61,475 bases of DNA from Synergistaceae bacterium (lineage in GTDB: Bacteria > Synergistota > Synergistia > Synergistales > Aminobacteriaceae). Every line of letters starts with the position of its first letter. Position 1 is the first letter of the stretch. Shown here piece after piece: positions 35,568 to 44,778 of this stretch. Under the pieces are notes generated by a model that had not been told where the DNA came from, did not search any database, and saw only the letters and a program-made list of their open reading frames with translations. A program made the position numbers and the translations under genes. Location: contig JAISLU010000074.1 of the NCBI GenBank assembly GCA_031277095.1, forward strand, positions 1 through 61,475, read 5' to 3'.

Positions 35568-35588
35568 AAACAAGGGAAGGTGAACATA

Positions 35589-36896
35589 TTGTCTTTGCTG
35601 GAAAAACAGTTCAAGCTGGCTGAAAACCACACGACGGTGAAGACGGAGGTCCTGGCGGGCGTCACGACATTTATGACGATGGCCTACATCATTTTCGTCA
35701 ACCCCAACATTCTCTCTCAAACGGGGATGCCTGTGGGGCCTTTGATGGTGGCCACCTGCGTGTCCGCCGCTTTTGCCACACTTTTGATGGCATTTTGGGC
35801 CAATTATCCTATCGCATTGGCCTCCGGTATGGGCCTCAACGCGTTTTTCGCTTTCAGCGTCGTTTTGAACCCCGAAATGGGCATGACGTGGCAGTTGGCC
35901 TTGGCCGCGATTTTCATCGAGGGCATTGCCTTCGTGCTGCTGACGCTCACCAAACTGCGGGAAACCATCGTCAACACCATCCCCAAGTCCTTGAAAATAG
36001 GGATCGCCAGCGGCATAGGCCTGTTCATAGCCTTCATCGGCCTGCAGGGAGCGGGGATCGTCGTTGACAACCCGGCTACCCTGGTGGGACTGGGCAGCAT
36101 AAAGAACAACTTTGCCATCGTTTTGGCCCTGGGCGGCCTGATCCTGATAGGGGCGCTGGAGTACTTCAAAGTCAGCGGATCTCTTTTGATCGGTATCATA
36201 GCCGTCACCGGCGCGGGAATCCTTTTGGGCAAGGTGCCGATGCCGGAGAGCGTGATTTCCGCGCCGCCGTCCCTCGCGCCCATTTTCCTGCAGCTGGATT
36301 TTTCCGGGTTGGGCAACCCCAACTTCTGGATCGCGACGTTCACCTTCTTTTTCGTGGATTTTTTCGACACGGTGGGGACGCTGGTGGGCGTCTGTAACCG
36401 CAGCGGGCTCCTGGACGAGCAGGGGCGGCTGCCCCGGGCGAGAGAGGCGCTCATGACCGACGCCGTCGGAACCGTGGCGGGGGCCTTGCTGGGAACGTCC
36501 ACGGTCACCTCTTACGTGGAAAGCGCCAGCGGCATCGCCCAAGGAGGCCGTACAGGACTCACCTCGGTGGTGGTGGGAATTTTGTTTCTGGTCTCGATTT
36601 TCTTCAGCCCTCTGGTGGGTATCGTCCCCGTCTACGCGACGGCCCCGGCTCTTGTCATGGTGGGCGTTTATATGATGATGGGGCTCCGCGACCTGAATTT
36701 CGACGACTGGACGGAGTTGCTGCCCGCCATGCTGGCCTTCTTCATGATGCCTATGGCCTACAGCATCGCCATAGGGATCGAGTTCGGCATCGCCTCCTAC
36801 GTTATCCTCAAAGTCGTGACCGGTAAGGCGAAAGACGTGAGCTGGGTGATGACCGGGCTCGCGGTTCTGTTCGTTTTGAAGGAATGCTTTGCCTGA
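35589..36896 (+). CDS. NCS2-family (AzgA/PbuG-like) purine permease
   Basis: A 435-residue inner-membrane carrier with about 13 helices, including M-T-M-A-Y-I-I-F-V-N-P near residue 35, A-S-G-M-G-L-N-A-F-F-A-F near 80 and F-F-F-V-D-F-F-D-T-V-G-T-L-V-G near 255, all hallmarks of the AzgA-like hypoxanthine/guanine/adenine:H+ symporters. The later T-S-T-V-T-S-Y-V-E-S-A-S-G is also typical. Substrate within the purines is not certain. I use the TTG at 35589 because AAGGTGA lies 5 nt upstream; a GTG at 35580 is also open. The ABC operon begins 34 nt after its stop. Confidence 0.9.
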   Translation: MSLLEKQFKLAENHTTVKTEVLAGVTTFMTMAYIIFVNPNILSQTGMPVGPLMVATCVSAAFATLLMAFWANYPIALASGMGLNAFFAFSVVLNPEMGMTWQLALAAIFIEGIAFVLLTLTKLRETIVNTIPKSLKIGIASGIGLFIAFIGLQGAGIVVDNPATLVGLGSIKNNFAIVLALGGLILIGALEYFKVSGSLLIGIIAVTGAGILLGKVPMPESVISAPPSLAPIFLQLDFSGLGNPNFWIATFTFFFVDFFDTVGTLVGVCNRSGLLDEQGRLPRAREALMTDAVGTVAGALLGTSTVTSYVESASGIAQGGRTGLTSVVVGILFLVSIFFSPLVGIVPVYATAPALVMVGVYMMMGLRDLNFDDWTELLPAMLAFFMMPMAYSIAIGIEFGIASYVILKVVTGKAKDVSWVMTGLAVLFVLKECFA

Positions 36897-36930: not shown

Positions 36931-38784
36931 ATGAAACGTTTTTATCGCTGTTCTTTGCGGCTCCTGTGGGCAGCTCTGGCGTTCTTCCTATGGGGGTCCG
37001 AAGTGTTGGCCGCGCCCTCCGGCTCCGATAAGTTCAACATTTTTGACTTTAAAGGGCCGAAGATGAAGGACCTGTATTACGTCATCGTGAGGGACATGGA
37101 CGCACAGCTCTTGGCGATGTCCACGGGAAAGCTGGACGTGCTGTCGGACCTCTACCGCCCGGCGGACGTGGAGCGTCTGGCTGTTTCGGGGGTGGCGGAT
37201 CTGTCTTTGGCCTCGACCTTTCACGGTTTTTTCATTACCTTCAACGTCCGCAAGTTCCCGTGGGATCAAAAGACGCTTCGTCAGGCCGCCTCTCAGGTCG
37301 TGGAGAGGAGAAAATGGGTCCGCGACCTGTTCTCTGGATACTGCGAACCCCTGACGAGTTTTTTGCCTCCCGTTTCGCCTTACCACTATCGAGTGGAAAC
37401 ATCCCCGGTAGAAACTCTTGCATCTGAAACACCCTCATCTGAAACACCTTCATCTAAAACACTTCTATCGGGGGTTGCGGGGGCACGGAAGCGCCTGGCC
37501 GACGAGGGATGGACCTGGAACTTGGCGGGGTGGCTGGTGGCGCCGGACGGGCGGGCGGTGCCCCCGGTGAGGATTTTGTGCCCGCCTTCCTCCGTGGCGG
37601 CGACCACCACCGAGATCGCTCAATTGATGGCCGAGGCCCTGCTCTCCATCGGAGTCCCGGCGGAGGCGGAGCCCATGGACTTTCAGACCATGCTGGCCCG
37701 AGTGGACGCCCGTGACTTCGACGCCTGCACCAACGCCTGGACCATGTCCCGAGACCCCGACGTCCTCCATTCCTTCTATCACTCGTCCATGGACGTGGAA
37801 GGCGGGTACAACCTGAGCGGCATCGCCGACCCCGAGCTGGATCGGGTGCTGCACAACCTGCGCTACGCCCCCGACGAGGCCACAGCGCGGATTATGGCCT
37901 CGGAAGCCCAAAAGCTCCTTGCGGACCTCGTGCCTGTGATTCCTCTTTACAGCCGCTACTCGATTTCCGCCGTACGCAACGATTGGGAGGGCGTCTTCAC
38001 CACCGACCGATCCACGGCGGACAATCTGCTGACCCTCATTTCCATGACACCAAAAACAAAAGAAGAAAAAAGTGAAAAAAGTGAACGGCCCATCTACTGG
38101 AACATTCCCGAGGAGATTCGAACCCTGAACCCCCTCGTCTCCTCCACGGCCTACGACTGGACGGTGTTGGGCACGGTTTACGACACGCTGCTCTCCACCG
38201 ACCCCTACACCTTCGAGGACATTCCCTGGTTGGCCGAGAGCTGGAGCATCGCCCAGGGAGAAATGGGCTCGGTTCTGACCTTCACCCTGCGCCCCGGCCT
38301 GAAATGGCAGGACGGCCGTCCCCTGACTGTGGAGGACGTGGCTTTTTCCCTCCAGTACATCAAGGACAACAACGTCCCGCGTTTTTACGACAGCGTAAAG
38401 GACATCGCTTCCATAGATGTGAAGGCGGTAGACGTGAACGCGGCGGAGCGGACTCTGCGCATATTCATGGCGAACACCAGCTACTGGCACCTGCACAACA
38501 TCGGAGGAATGCTGGTCTTGCCCAAACACATTCTGGAGAACGTACCGGATTGGCGGGGGTGGCAGCCCACGAACCGGCCGCACCTGGCCTTGGACGGGAC
38601 GGTCATGACGGAGCTGGTGGGCACAGGCCCCTTCACCTTCCGGGAATCCCGGACGGGGGAGTACGTACACATGACCCGCAACCCGCACTACATGCTGCTG
38701 CACTCCGAAAGCGAGAAAAATCTTGGAGAAAATATCACGGATAATATGACGGATAATATCATGGAAAACAGGATGGAAAATTAG
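36931..38784 (+). CDS. peptide-type ABC solute-binding protein with swapped halves (circular permutation)
   Basis: A 617-residue exported binding protein of the SBP_bac_5 (DppA/OppA) family, first in an operon with two permeases and two ATPases. A signal peptide covers residues 1-28. The order of the family halves is reversed. Residues about 35-375 are what is normally the C-terminal half: D-L-Y-Y-V-I-V-R-D-M-D-A-Q-L-L-A, F-I-T-F-N-V-R-K, R-D-P-D-V-L-H-S-F-Y, V-P-V-I-P-L-Y. Residues 388-597 are the usual N-terminal half: R-T-L-N-P-L-V-S-S, V-Y-D-T-L-L, L-A-E-S-W, L-R-P-G-L-K-W-Q-D-G-R-P-L-T-V-E-D-V, V-G-T-G-P-F-T-F, T-R-N-P-H-Y. A Lys/Glu linker joins them. Start codon uncertain (TTG at 36889 is open; no SD). 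Confidence 0.9.
   Translation: MKRFYRCSLRLLWAALAFFLWGSEVLAAPSGSDKFNIFDFKGPKMKDLYYVIVRDMDAQLLAMSTGKLDVLSDLYRPADVERLAVSGVADLSLASTFHGFFITFNVRKFPWDQKTLRQAASQVVERRKWVRDLFSGYCEPLTSFLPPVSPYHYRVETSPVETLASETPSSETPSSKTLLSGVAGARKRLADEGWTWNLAGWLVAPDGRAVPPVRILCPPSSVAATTTEIAQLMAEALLSIGVPAEAEPMDFQTMLARVDARDFDACTNAWTMSRDPDVLHSFYHSSMDVEGGYNLSGIADPELDRVLHNLRYAPDEATARIMASEAQKLLADLVPVIPLYSRYSISAVRNDWEGVFTTDRSTADNLLTLISMTPKTKEEKSEKSERPIYWNIPEEIRTLNPLVSSTAYDWTVLGTVYDTLLSTDPYTFEDIPWLAESWSIAQGEMGSVLTFTLRPGLKWQDGRPLTVEDVAFSLQYIKDNNVPRFYDSVKDIASIDVKAVDVNAAERTLRIFMANTSYWHLHNIGGMLVLPKHILENVPDWRGWQPTNRPHLALDGTVMTELVGTGPFTFRESRTGEYVHMTRNPHYMLLHSESEKNLGENITDNMTDNIMENRMEN
37396..37470. repeat. 15-bp tandem array (5 copies) inside the binding-protein gene
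   Basis: Five 15-bp units (37396-37410 through 37456-37470), typical unit GAAACACCTTCATCT, encode E-T-S-P-V, E-T-L-A-S, E-T-P-S-S, E-T-P-S-S, K-T-L-L-S. They replace the loop that normally follows the Y-G-x-P-x-x-S-F-x-P-P segment of this family. Confidence 0.95.
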
Positions 38785-38811: not shown

Positions 38812-39777
38812 ATGAACGCCCTGGCCAAAAGGGTTGCGGGCTCCCTGGTGGTGCTGGTGGTGGTGCTGGTACTCAACTTTTTCCTTTTCCGCATCATGCC
38901 CGGAGACCCCATGACCGGCATCATGGACCCCCGGTTTTCTCCCGAGGCCAAAGAGCGGCTTGCCGCCCAGTGGGGCCTGGACAGGCCGCTGGGGGAGCAG
39001 TTTGTGGTCTATCTTCGGGAGATGCTTTCGTTCCGGTTCGGTCTGTCGATGATGACGGGCGTGCCCGTGTGGGACGAGCTGAAAAACCGGGTGCCCAACA
39101 CCGTGGCGCTTCTGCTTCCGGCGCTGCTTTTATCGGCGGCCCTGGGGCTGTGGCTGGGGGTGAAGGCCGCCCTGAGGCGGGGCTCGAAGGTGGAGCGGCT
39201 GGTCCTCCTGAGCGGCGCCGTTTCCTTCTCGTTCCCCTCGTTTTTCATCCAGCTTCTCCTTCTTCTGTGTTTCGCCTACGCCTGGCCCATTTTCCCCCTG
39301 CGGGGAACGACGTCCATTCCCCCTCCGGAGGGGGCGGCGGCCCTGCTGGACTACCTGTGGCACCTGGCCTTGCCGCTTTTTTCCCTGGTGATCCTGAGTT
39401 TTGGCGGGTGGGCCCTCTACATTCGCAATATGATGGTGAAGGCCCTGGGCGAGGACTACGTTTTGATGGCTCGAGCCCGCGGCCTGCCCCGCAGTCGTGT
39501 GGTGTGGAACCACGGATTCCGCTCCATCCTGCCCCCGGTACTCACCCTCTTTCTGCTCTCTCTGCCTGGGGTGGTCAGCGGAGCCGTCATCACGGAGACC
39601 GTTTTTTCCCTGAACGGGGCGGGACGGTTTTTACTGGAGGCCACCCATTCCCACGACTATCCCTCGGCCGGGGCGGCGTTTTTTCTGCTGGCGCTCCTGA
39701 CAGTCTCCTGCAATCTGTTGGCGGACCTGATCTACGTCATGGTGGATCCCCGCGTGAGAAGGGAAGGCGCCCGATGA
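38812..39777 (+). CDS. peptide-type ABC transporter permease (DppB/OppB-like)
   Basis: A 321-residue inner-membrane permease with six helices. It has the DppB N-terminus (F-F-L-F-R-I-M-P-G-D-P), an extracytoplasmic segment with A-Q-W-G-L-D-R-P-L and the EAA-type ATPase-contact loop L-M-A-R-A-R-G-L-P-R-S-R-V-V-W-N-H-G-F-R near residue 225. The SD GGAGG lies 11 nt before the ATG. The stop overlaps the next ATG (ATGA). It pairs with the 39774 permease, and uptake of oligopeptides or similar amides is expected. Confidence 0.92.
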   Translation: MNALAKRVAGSLVVLVVVLVLNFFLFRIMPGDPMTGIMDPRFSPEAKERLAAQWGLDRPLGEQFVVYLREMLSFRFGLSMMTGVPVWDELKNRVPNTVALLLPALLLSAALGLWLGVKAALRRGSKVERLVLLSGAVSFSFPSFFIQLLLLLCFAYAWPIFPLRGTTSIPPPEGAAALLDYLWHLALPLFSLVILSFGGWALYIRNMMVKALGEDYVLMARARGLPRSRVVWNHGFRSILPPVLTLFLLSLPGVVSGAVITETVFSLNGAGRFLLEATHSHDYPSAGAAFFLLALLTVSCNLLADLIYVMVDPRVRREGAR

Positions 39778-41036
39778 CCCGGAGCGCGGTCTGCTTGGCC
39801 CTTCTGGCGCTTTTGGCTCTGGTCGGCCCCGCGCCCTTCGGACTGAAAGACGGCCCTCAAGCGCCCCCCTACTCCAAGCCCGCCTGGCTGGACCGGTCTA
39901 TCGCGCCGACGGTGGTTCTGCGGGTAAGCGCCGCTTCTCATATCGCTTCTTACGATTGGAACTACGCGGCGCCTTTGCGCGTCGCTCTGACGGGACGCCT
40001 TGAAGGAGGCTCTATTCACTGGACCACACCCAAGGGCGAATTTGTGCTGGCGAACGGGCCTGAGACCGGGTCGGAACCCGTTGTTCTGGACTTGGACGCC
40101 CGGGACATTCCCTTCAAAAGATCAGTGGGGATGAAGCCCTTCGACAACATGCCCGCCCTGCTTTTCCCGTCGAAGGGAGAGTACCGTCTTTCCCTTCTGG
40201 GGAGCGGGGACGTGGTCATGAGGATCGAGGGCGGACGCTGGGGCTGGCTTGGAGCGGATCAGCGCGGGCGGGACGTGGCGGCGCTTTTCCTCCGGGGCAT
40301 ACGCATCTCCTTGATCGTAGGGATCGCCTCCACCTTGATCGCCATGCTTCTGGGGCTTTCTCTGGGGTTGCTTTCAGGGTACGCGGGAGGGATGACCGAC
40401 GCCGTGATCATGCGCGGGGTGGACGTGCTTCTTTCCATTCCGACCCTGCCGATTTTGATGGTGATCGCCGGGATGTGGGGCAAGGGGCTTTGGAACCTGG
40501 TCCTGATCCTCTCGGTTTTTTCATGGATGGGGACGGCCAGAACGGTGCGCGCCATGACCCTCTCCCTGAGGGACGCCCCTTGGGTGGACGGCCTGCGCGC
40601 TCTGGGGGCGAAGCGAAACTACATTCTCTTCCGGCATTTGGTTCCCGAGGCTCTGCCCCTCTTGCTGGCGAACGTGGCTTTGGGGGTTCCTGGGGCGATT
40701 TTGGCCGAGGCCGGGCTGGCCTTTTTGGGGTTGTCGGACCCCCGCCTGCCCTCCTGGGGGCGTATGCTTCACGAGGCCCACGTTTTCGGGGCCTTTACCA
40801 ACGGGGCCTGGTGGACGATTCTGCCGCCGGGGCTGGGCATTTCCCTGATATGCCTGGTTTTCATGGACATCGGCCGCAAACTCGAGGAGCGCGCCGACCC
40901 GCGCCTCAAACAAGCGGGAGCCTTACTAACTGAAGTTCCACGAACTGACGTTTCTCAAATTGAAGTTTCAAAAATTGAAGTTTTAAAAACCGAAGTTTCG
41001 CAATCGGGGGCTTCGTCGAGGGAGGATTCCCGATGA
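39774..41036 (+). CDS. peptide-type ABC permease (DppC-like) with large extracytoplasmic insert
   Basis: A 420-residue permease. After a first hydrophobic segment (residues 3-18) there is an extracytoplasmic insert of about 140 residues (25-165) before W-G-W-L-G-A-D-Q-R-G-R-D-V, the sequence that normally starts soon after helix 1 in DppC. The membrane domain (170-390) has five helices and the EAA loop G-L-R-A-L-G-A-K-R-N-Y-I-L-F-R-H near 280. The C-terminal tail carries five repeats of the T-E-V-x-x type from a 15-bp array. ATGA overlaps exist at both ends of the gene. Confidence 0.9.
   Translation: MTRSAVCLALLALLALVGPAPFGLKDGPQAPPYSKPAWLDRSIAPTVVLRVSAASHIASYDWNYAAPLRVALTGRLEGGSIHWTTPKGEFVLANGPETGSEPVVLDLDARDIPFKRSVGMKPFDNMPALLFPSKGEYRLSLLGSGDVVMRIEGGRWGWLGADQRGRDVAALFLRGIRISLIVGIASTLIAMLLGLSLGLLSGYAGGMTDAVIMRGVDVLLSIPTLPILMVIAGMWGKGLWNLVLILSVFSWMGTARTVRAMTLSLRDAPWVDGLRALGAKRNYILFRHLVPEALPLLLANVALGVPGAILAEAGLAFLGLSDPRLPSWGRMLHEAHVFGAFTNGAWWTILPPGLGISLICLVFMDIGRKLEERADPRLKQAGALLTEVPRTDVSQIEVSKIEVLKTEVSQSGASSREDSR
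40929..41003. repeat. 15-bp tandem array (5 copies) in the DppC-like gene tail
   Basis: Five adjacent 15-bp units, typical ATTGAAGTTTCAAAA, encode T-E-V-P-R, T-D-V-S-Q, I-E-V-S-K, I-E-V-L-K, T-E-V-S-Q just before the stop codon. The permease domain ends before the array, so it only extends the cytoplasmic tail. Confidence 0.95.
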
Positions 41037-41869
41037 CAGGGGGCGCAAAATCGGCGATAGAGCTTCGCGGCCTCTCCGTTACGTATGGAAGCAGGGGAAA
41101 AAACGATAAAGAAGTACGCGCCGTGAGAGATTGCTCCTTTTCTATCGCCCGGGGAGACATCGTCGGGCTGGTGGGCGAATCGGGCAGCGGCAAATCCAGC
41201 GCCCTCATGGCGATCCCCCGGCTGCTGCCGGCGGGGACGAAGGTGTCCGGGCAAATTTTCTGCGACGGAGAGGACATCTCGGCCCTGGGAGAGGAGGCCA
41301 TGAACCGCTGGCGTTGGCGCCGCATCGCTCTGGTCCCCCAGGGGGCGATGAACTCCTTCACCCCCCATCTTTCCGTGGAACGGCATATCACCGAAGTTCT
41401 GACCCACCACATGAAAATGACCCGGCGGGAGGGCCGCGAATGCGCCGCCGAACTCCTGAAAACCGTGGGTTTGGAGGCTCAGGGGGCATCCTCGGTTCTC
41501 GACCGGTATCCTCACGAGCTGTCGGGCGGACAGAAACAGCGGGCGGCTCTGGCGACGGCTCTGGCCTGCGGGCCGGACTTCCTTCTGGCGGACGAGCCAA
41601 CGACGGCCTTGGACGTCATCACGCAAAAAGAGGTGCTGGATATGACCGCCGCCCTGGTGCGGGAGCGGGGCATGGGGCTTTTGCTGGTAACCCACGACCT
41701 GCCCCTGGCGGCCGGGCTCTGCGACGTGCTGATCGTGATGAAAGAGGGCTCGGTGGTGGAAATCGGCCCCTCCCGGACGGTGGTGGACGCGCCGCGGCAC
41801 CCCTACACCCGGAAGCTGATCCAGGCGATCCGCAGTTTGGAAGAGCGGACAGAAACGGAGGGCGAATGA
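41033..41869 (+). CDS. ABC transporter ATPase (DppD/OppD-like)
   Basis: A 278-residue nucleotide-binding subunit. Walker A is G-E-S-G-S-G-K-S-S near residue 45. The Q-loop is at V-P-Q-G-A-M-N-S-F, the signature L-S-G-G-Q-K-Q-R-A-A-L-A near 163, Walker B L-L-A-D-E-P-T-T-A-L-D near 183 and the switch His in V-T-H-D-L. The C-terminal oligopeptide-type extension (H-P-Y-T-R-K-L) is present but short, and I do not see the Cys cluster of some OppD proteins. It is coupled to the genes on both sides by ATGA overlaps. Confidence 0.93.
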   Translation: MTGGAKSAIELRGLSVTYGSRGKNDKEVRAVRDCSFSIARGDIVGLVGESGSGKSSALMAIPRLLPAGTKVSGQIFCDGEDISALGEEAMNRWRWRRIALVPQGAMNSFTPHLSVERHITEVLTHHMKMTRREGRECAAELLKTVGLEAQGASSVLDRYPHELSGGQKQRAALATALACGPDFLLADEPTTALDVITQKEVLDMTAALVRERGMGLLLVTHDLPLAAGLCDVLIVMKEGSVVEIGPSRTVVDAPRHPYTRKLIQAIRSLEERTETEGE

Positions 41870-42726
41870 CTCTGCCGAACGCGCTTTTAAACGTAAAAGA
41901 ACTGAGCGTACACTTTAAGTTGAAAGGCTTTGACTTGAGCGGACACCTGGGCCTCTCTAAAAGACGGGAAGAGGGAGTCTGGGCCTTGAAGTCCGTTTCT
42001 TTTTCCCTGGGGAAAATAGCCGCGCCTGAAGGAGCCATGCTCAAGGGAGCTACGCTCTCGATCGTGGGGGAGTCCGGAAGCGGGAAAACGACCCTTTTGC
42101 GCTCGCTGCTGGGGCTCGTTCCCCCTACGGGCGGGGACGTGGAGCTTTGGGGACGGTCTCTGAGGGCCATGACCGACGAGGAGCGACTGGCGGTACGGCG
42201 TCGGTGCGGTTACGTGCCCCAGGATCCCTACAGCTCCCTGCCGCCCACCTTGACCGTTCTGGGCGCCGTGACGGAGCCCTGGAACGTGGTGCGCGGCGGA
42301 GAGCGGGAGAAGGGCCTCGCCAAGGCCAAGGAACTCCTGGCCGAACTCAAATTGCCCGAGGAACTCTGGGGCGCCCGGGTGCGTTATTCTCTGTCCGGCG
42401 GCCAGCGGCAGAGGGTGGCCGTGGCCCGGGCGCTGGTTCTCGACCCGGAGCTTCTGCTCTGCGACGAGCCCACGGCCATGCAGGACGTCTCCACCCGGGG
42501 CGAGGTGCTGGAGGTTTTGAACCGCCGAGTGGCCGCGGGAATGTCCATGATCCTGGTGACCCACGACCTCCTTCTGGCCCGGTACGCCTCGACCCGAGGG
42601 GCTGTGCTCTACAAAGGGGAGATCGTGGAGTCCGGGGACACGAGAGAGCTTCTGGAGCGCCCGACCCACACCTATACCCGGGCACTGCTGGCGGCGCTGC
42701 CGAAACTTCCGCCCCGGGGCGAGTAG
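41866..42726 (+). CDS. ABC transporter ATPase (DppF/OppF-like)
   Basis: A 286-residue second ATPase. Walker A is G-E-S-G-S-G-K-T-T, the Q-loop is Y-V-P-Q-D-P-Y-S-S, the signature is L-S-G-G-Q-R-Q-R-V-A-V-A-R-A and Walker B is L-L-L-C-D-E-P-T-A-M-Q-D. The last reads A-M-Q-D where the usual D-loop is S-A-L-D, a change also seen in some OppF-type proteins. V-T-H-D-L supplies the switch His. A polar insert of about 20 residues (25-55) follows the first strand. It is the last gene of the operon; a G/C hairpin follows at 42758. Confidence 0.92.
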   Translation: MTLPNALLNVKELSVHFKLKGFDLSGHLGLSKRREEGVWALKSVSFSLGKIAAPEGAMLKGATLSIVGESGSGKTTLLRSLLGLVPPTGGDVELWGRSLRAMTDEERLAVRRRCGYVPQDPYSSLPPTLTVLGAVTEPWNVVRGGEREKGLAKAKELLAELKLPEELWGARVRYSLSGGQRQRVAVARALVLDPELLLCDEPTAMQDVSTRGEVLEVLNRRVAAGMSMILVTHDLLLARYASTRGAVLYKGEIVESGDTRELLERPTHTYTRALLAALPKLPPRGE

Positions 42727-43305: not shown

Positions 43306-44778
43306 TTACCCATTCAGCCCGGCTACGGCGTCGAAACGCTGTTTCAGGTCGATGTAGAGCGCCTTGAATTGACCGTAGACGGCGTCGTATTTGGGGTAGT
43401 CCGCCGCGTCTGGGTCAGTCGCCGAGGCTTCTTTCACCCAGGCCTTCACCGCCGCGACCTCCCCGCCGCCCCCCAGGGCCGCCAGCATGGCCGCGCCGTA
43501 AGCTCCGCCCTCGTCCACGGCCGGAACGGTGACGGGGACTTTCAGGTTGGTGGCCAACATTTTACGCCAGATCCTGTTCTTGGCGCCGCCCCCCACCAGG
43601 AAAACTCGCTTTATCGGCATCCGCTCCCTCAGGAGTTCAAAAGAATCCCGCAATCCGTAGGTGATACCCTCCATGATCGCGCGGAAAATCCGCATCTCGT
43701 CGCTCATGGTGGAAAGTCCGAAAAGAACTCCTCGGGCGTTGGGGTTGCGGTGCGGTGTTCTCTCCCCCTGAAGGTACGGCAGCCACAGCAGCCCGTCGCT
43801 TCCGATGGGAGTTTCCCCGATCCCCTTCTCGATTTCATCCCAGGTAAGGTGGCGTCCCATTTTTTCTTTGAACCAATTCAACGATGACGCCGCCGACAAC
43901 ATGACCCCCATGTAATACGAAAGACCCGGCAGCACGTGATTGAAAAAGTGCAGTTTGCCGGTTTTGTCGGAAGCCGTCTGTGCCGTCGCCCCCACCACCG
44001 TTCCCGAGGTGCCGATGGACACCATGCAGTCGCCCTCTTCGCAGACCCCGACTCCCAGGGCCGAGACCGCGTTGTCCGCTCCCCCGGCGACGACCTCCAC
44101 ACCGTCCCAGGAAAACTTTCGGGTCAGATCTTCCCGCAGCCGCCCCCGCACCTCGAAGGAACCCTGTATGGGCGGCAGCAGTTTTTTGTCGATATTCAAA
44201 ACTTCCAGCAAAGGCTCGCTCCATCGTCTGCGGACGACGTCGTACATGGCGCTTCCCGAGGCGTCGGAGGGGTCGCAGCCCAGGGCGCCGGTCAGTTTGT
44301 AAGCGATGTAGTCCTTCGCGATGAGGCAAACCGCGATTTTCTCGTATATTTGGGGCTCCTGGCTGCGCAGCCACAAAATTTTAGGCAAGGTGAACCCCGG
44401 ATAGACCGGGTTTCCGGTCAACGCGATGACCCGCTCTTCCCCGCCCAGCTCCCGGGTCGCGGCCTCGCACTGGGAAGCCGTCCGCTGGTCGCACCAGAGA
44501 ATGGCGTTGCGGAGAACGTTGCCGTCTTTGTCCAGGGGCACGAGGGTGTGCATCTGGCCGGACAGCCCGATACGCTTCACCTTCATGTTCCTGGGAACGG
44601 CTTGGAGCAGAGACAGCACTCCCTCCCACCAACTCTCCGGGTCTTGTTCCGCCCAGGCGGGATGAGGGGTCAGAAGAGAAAGAGGATGAGAAAAATTCCC
44701 CACCACATTGCCCGACCCGTCCACAGCAAGGACTTTGATCCCCGTCGTGCCCACGTCGATGCCCAAATTTACGTCCAT
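43306..44778 (-). CDS. xylB: xylulokinase (FGGY family)
   Basis: XylB phosphorylates D-xylulose to xylulose 5-phosphate. The 490-residue protein starts with the phosphate-binding D-V-G-T-T-G-I-K. It has L-S-G-Q-M-H-T-L near 75, typical of xylulokinases, and G-G-A-D-N-A-V-S-A-L-G-V-G with the catalytic Asp near 235. The FGGY signatures are G-R and F-L-V-G-G-G-A-K-N near 395. SD GGGGGTG precedes the ATG. It is last in a minus-strand run that starts with a TRAP transporter and contains a Zn dehydrogenase, so it probably handles a ketopentose made in this pathway. Confidence 0.92.
   Translation of the reverse strand: MDVNLGIDVGTTGIKVLAVDGSGNVVGNFSHPLSLLTPHPAWAEQDPESWWEGVLSLLQAVPRNMKVKRIGLSGQMHTLVPLDKDGNVLRNAILWCDQRTASQCEAATRELGGEERVIALTGNPVYPGFTLPKILWLRSQEPQIYEKIAVCLIAKDYIAYKLTGALGCDPSDASGSAMYDVVRRRWSEPLLEVLNIDKKLLPPIQGSFEVRGRLREDLTRKFSWDGVEVVAGGADNAVSALGVGVCEEGDCMVSIGTSGTVVGATAQTASDKTGKLHFFNHVLPGLSYYMGVMLSAASSLNWFKEKMGRHLTWDEIEKGIGETPIGSDGLLWLPYLQGERTPHRNPNARGVLFGLSTMSDEMRIFRAIMEGITYGLRDSFELLRERMPIKRVFLVGGGAKNRIWRKMLATNLKVPVTVPAVDEGGAYGAAMLAALGGGGEVAAVKAWVKEASATDPDAADYPKYDAVYGQFKALYIDLKQRFDAVAGLNG

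Follow-up and report, generated by a model that had tools for sequence, protein, structure and literature searches.

The window analysed here, a stretch of 61,475 nucleotides from a Synergistaceae bacterium, contains an uninterrupted open reading frame (36931-38784, + strand) that encodes a protein of 617 amino acids and is followed on the same strand by genes for two permeases and two ATPases. The sole Pfam family matched by the protein is PF00496 (SBP_bac_5), whose very numerous members serve as receptors for bacterial importers and are usually recognised by segment order, and the score of 175.9 bits lies above the curated cut-off of 32.4 bits. All PF00496 segments are present once and do not follow the canonical N-to-C order, with profile positions 144-363 matched first (37051-37785, E 1.9e-24) and positions 3-141 second (38221-38694, E 4.7e-26). 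Each of the nine other SBP_bac_5 genes in the same genome has the canonical order, covering profile positions of about 1-365. When the window protein was re-joined canonically, a single PF00496 stretch was obtained (57-472, corresponding to profile 3-363 of 368) and the score was 188.3 bits, compared with 175.9 bits in the native order. Given the swapped profile order, the protein is classed as a permuted variant rather than an ordinary SBP_bac_5 member. An earlier sequence-only reading of this DNA had claimed both a swapped block order, to be checked by aligning each block to PF00496, and an unbroken gene, and the two reversed matches within an intact frame bear out each claim.

The new N-terminus carries a putative signal peptide that is clear by eye (36931-37011), looks to be of the SPase I type, ends in ...EVLA and is without a lipobox cysteine. 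Behind it lies the old C-terminal two-thirds of the protein (residues 33-372, 37027-38046), comprising PF00496 profile 144-363 plus the old C-terminal end, then a linker, TPKTKEEKSEKSER, running from the old C- to the old N-terminus (38047-38088), and last the old N-terminal third (residues 387-592, 38089-38706; profile 3-141), which finishes with RNPHY; all of these features are on the + strand. The cut point after RNPHY is equivalent to residue 233 of 535 in the Escherichia coli DppA precursor and places the new termini in the loop that follows the RNxxYW motif. Mapping of 12 canonical proteins to one profile puts the equivalent point likewise behind an RNxxYW-type motif, in agreement with the break originally proposed at this position. 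Members of the group share these boundaries, as 21 aligned proteins begin, downstream of a putative signal peptide, just ahead of a GPxxxxLY motif and terminate a short way past the RNxxYW-type motif, in some cases with a small tail. The Lys/Glu linker described in the earlier reading is present in the window protein but is a local feature, as it exceeds most relatives' linkers in length and most relatives fuse the old ends by few residues; the long linker and the C-terminal tail are traits of the window's own lineage. No lipobox is present in the window protein; one relative (L077) may carry one.

The downstream genes, all on the + strand, encode permease 1 of the DppB/OppB type (38812-39777), permease 2 of the DppC/OppC type with an extra insert (39774-41036), ATPase 1 of the DppD/OppD type (41033-41869) and ATPase 2 of the DppF/OppF type (41866-42726), so that BPD_transp_1 permeases and oligo_HPY ATPases stand beside the binding protein. 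ATGA overlaps, described in the earlier reading for the permease and ATPase genes, occur between permeases 1 and 2, between permease 2 and ATPase 1 and between the two ATPases, but the binding-protein gene is instead followed by a 27-nt gap, which contains an AGGAGG site. Nearly all of the families sampled retain this gene order, from the binding protein through permease 1, permease 2 and ATPase 1 to ATPase 2; the exceptions are occasional relocations and losses at contig ends. In one genome (G067, L088:6646-10527), permease 2 and both ATPases lie in one reading frame as an apparent triple fusion, and in another (G009, 86% complete) the locus L052 holds the permuted gene and permease 1, with permease 2 and the ATPases not found nearby.

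No gene outside the five was conserved beside the operon in the neighbour-gene search, and the genomic context therefore gives no hint of the substrate. Within the window, a Xan_ur_permease (PF00860) gene lies just upstream of the operon (35580-36896) and is not kept at that place in the relatives, and an FGGY carbohydrate kinase gene lies downstream on the opposite strand (43306-44778, minus). Short LacI-type HTH ORFs are located directly 5' of the operon in two genera of the family f4 (L084:4431-5045 and L083:9725-10318).

With the full-length protein as query, 44 of 61 relatives showed the permuted order, as did 108 of 188 Synergistota genomes, these 108 coming from all ten families of the order; the same order had been proposed as something to seek in Synergistetes. 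A single match extends across both halves in 102 of the 108 genomes, the others being pieces at contig edges or splits. The permuted gene is single-copy, is present in six single-contig genomes (G006, G033, G049, G057, G142 and G143) and occurs on 27 public contigs, all labelled Synergistaceae or Synergistales, where it is in some cases cut at the contig end. Searches of about 204 genomes from other phyla and of four genomes from f11, the other family of the window's own phylum, gave no window-type permutant. Window-type permutants form one clade in the tree (SH-aLRT 100), and codon comparison of three pairs gave dN/dS values of about 0.17, 0.22 and 0.09, indicating purifying selection. A single origin in a Synergistales ancestor, with vertical inheritance from then on, is the most likely history of the permuted order. 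Since the swap has been kept across a whole bacterial order, the window protein very probably still folds and works. In a two-contig genome (G127, L081:4896-6649) the permuted gene appears as two overlapping ORFs split near query residue 420, which may be a frameshift or a real break.

Structure prediction with AlphaFold2 from permuted sequences only gave a pLDDT of 59.1 and a pTM of 0.52, and this model was dropped as too weak. The alignment was deepened by adding 24 canonical half-fragments, each half on its own row, and the resulting model had a pLDDT of 84.9, a pTM of 0.83 and one compact fold; the outcome is dependent on the alignment. Whether the halves would close into one SBP fold had been raised in the earlier reading, and the second model predicts that they do. 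Of the four scans of viral contigs performed to deepen the alignment, three were without matches and one gave canonical members. The best 50 Foldseek matches were Cluster C binding proteins, aligned over about 300-370 columns with a TM to target of up to 0.52 over one block, a coverage that would be expected of a sequential aligner given a permutant. The Cluster C fold is thus a prediction by AlphaFold2 and Foldseek. When a junction-spanning profile was compared with PDB chains, none of the 60 best matches listed extended over the junction.

Taken together, the profile order, order-wide conservation, purifying selection, operon conservation and AlphaFold2 model argue, with a probability of about 0.9, that the gene, which heads a five-gene Opp/Dpp importer operon, codes for a natural circular permutant of a Cluster C (SBP_bac_5) protein, and they support the working permutant at the head of an intact operon that the sequence-only reading had put forward. 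The window protein shares all PF00496 segments and the predicted fold with DppA, OppA, NikA, SapA and Opp4A, as well as a PepT-type operon of two permeases and two oligo_HPY ATPases, at the head of which it stands. It differs from DppA-type Cluster C proteins in being permuted at the RNxxYW loop, in not keeping the residues equivalent to R383 and D436, and in having a partner permease 2 with an insert. Annotation by segment order can misread such permuted SBP_bac_5 proteins as fragments. A natural and functional circularly permuted ABC binding protein, TpMglB-2 (Tp0684) of Treponema pallidum, has been described as 'Type Ic / Cluster Bc' with relatives in other bacteria, and its lipoprotein tether has been suggested as a reason for the permutation (PMC4990184). 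This protein is a precedent from a different binding-protein class, having a Cluster B sugar-binding fold and being a lipoprotein, whereas the window protein matches PF00496 only, gives Cluster C fold matches and is without a lipobox. In agreement with the earlier reading, the open-access literature yielded no account of SBP_bac_5 permutants occurring in nature, a weak sign of absence because most subscription journals fall outside such a search.

To look for other permutants, a profile across the old-end junction was run on 208 genomes and yielded one further case, L146:1213-2973 in G307. This protein is OppA-like and lipoprotein-like, is cut ahead of the LxLLYN strand and heads a full opp-type operon, and its type (with L153-L158) is conserved in six of the seven genomes of its phylum, which is another than the window's. 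A similar cut is present in P0002 (L093:3117-4799, minus), found only in G037, a Synergistales genome that also carries the window type. These type-2 permutants (L146 with five relatives, and P0002) belong to the same family as the window protein, have their old termini joined and head an Opp/Dpp-type operon, but are cut elsewhere. The tree places L146 with canonical relatives of OppA (99), and this protein therefore arose separately from the window type. P0002 and the canonical protein L103 fall close to the window type (98), which is compatible with P0002 and the window type deriving from one fused duplicate; because L103 is canonical, has a long branch and shares their group, this common origin is no more than a possibility. 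From these positions, SBP_bac_5 proteins have been permuted independently at least twice and possibly three times. An order-wide permutant and an independent one in another phylum imply that the fold tolerates moved termini in nature, and they offer natural templates for permuted binding proteins, a design used in biosensors. Plasmid tblastn matches with more than 80% query coverage were interpreted as presumably canonical genes that align with the query in two segments rather than as permutants. A search of G313's phylum (149 genomes, E <= 1e-22) gave no match, a negative of little weight in view of the missing positive control.

The family and operon type indicate a putative importer of the peptide/nickel class. 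In an ordinary cycle of such an importer, the window protein would be exported to the periplasm, would capture its ligand through Venus-flytrap closure of the lobes and, once loaded, would dock on the permease pair and hand over the ligand, with ATP-driven import completing the cycle. Residues R383 and D436 of DppA (precursor numbering), which hold the peptide ends (a role also taken from the title of PDB entry 8z1z), are not kept, their places being occupied by V in most cases and by T, S or G, respectively, in 19 aligned permutants. A peptide substrate should therefore not be assumed; many canonical SBP_bac_5 members also differ at these positions.

The insert in permease 2 comprises about 130 residues (39855-40241, + strand) placed after the first hydrophobic segment and ahead of the permease core, and gave neither a Pfam match nor a credible PDB match by sequence search. 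Its profile has matches in 106 of 392 genomes, with insert and permuted protein both present in 105 and both missing in 283; the permuted protein occurs without the insert in G008, G009 and G021, and the insert without the permuted protein in G118. For G009, no insert-bearing permease was found in the 86% complete genome. The permease beside P0002 lacks the insert, as does, by gene length and match, the one beside L146, and in the permease beside the canonical L094 it is not recognisable. Unlike the window type, L146 combines a lipoprotein-like receptor of independent origin with a permease 2 that has no insert. The co-occurrence could be explained by operon inheritance alone. In G025, however, the insert-bearing permease lies 13.5 kb off within the binding protein's contig, and G016 has it on a separate contig while permease 1 still adjoins the binding protein; these relocations, few as they are, suggest an association that exceeds linkage. 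We infer more weakly that the insert, specific to the partner permease, may contact the permuted protein, and the pair is a testable case of receptor-permease co-adaptation. A broader proposal, that Cluster C proteins have been permuted at least three times at two cut sites and that the Synergistales protein and the insert form a co-evolved docking pair defining a distinct Opp/Dpp subtype, is tentative and somewhat less likely than not.

Several explanations other than a functional permuted receptor were weighed. If misassembly or deletion had brought two pieces of canonical genes together, the gene would be an assembly artefact or a decaying gene; the window is from a 113-contig assembly, single relatives such as G127 show splits, and the relative at L052 is without the remaining operon genes nearby. 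The same order is nonetheless present in more than 100 independent assemblies from ten families, six of them single-contig, and the reading frame is intact and under purifying selection. On these grounds misassembly and pseudogene status were ruled out, and such an artefact carries next to no weight. It is also quite improbable that the permuted protein has become a sensor or chaperone that no longer feeds the importer, since it heads a complete and conserved importer operon and is co-retained with a special permease, despite the loss of the DppA peptide-terminus residues and the LacI-type HTH ORFs directly upstream in two f4 relatives.

An origin of the permuted receptor from tandem genes by loss of their outer halves is plausible. 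The intermediate expected, a fused double-copy SBP_bac_5 gene, was not present among 169 SBP ORFs; long ORFs in G007, G076, G313 and G316 were considered as fused double copies and each holds a single copy. If the tandem genes were unlike, the retained inner halves would give a chimera with blocks from two different paralogous binding proteins. Trees of the separate halves, at modest resolution and with partial sampling, both put the permutants next to P0002 and the canonical L103; they therefore give no indication that two unrelated paralogues were combined, and we regard a chimera as unlikely, although a tandem SBP_bac_5 pair in a Synergistaceae-type genome could yield one. This pair (G007, L174:1841-5152) consists of two canonical SBP_bac_5 genes with about 10 nt between them, and genes so arranged could give rise to a permutant.
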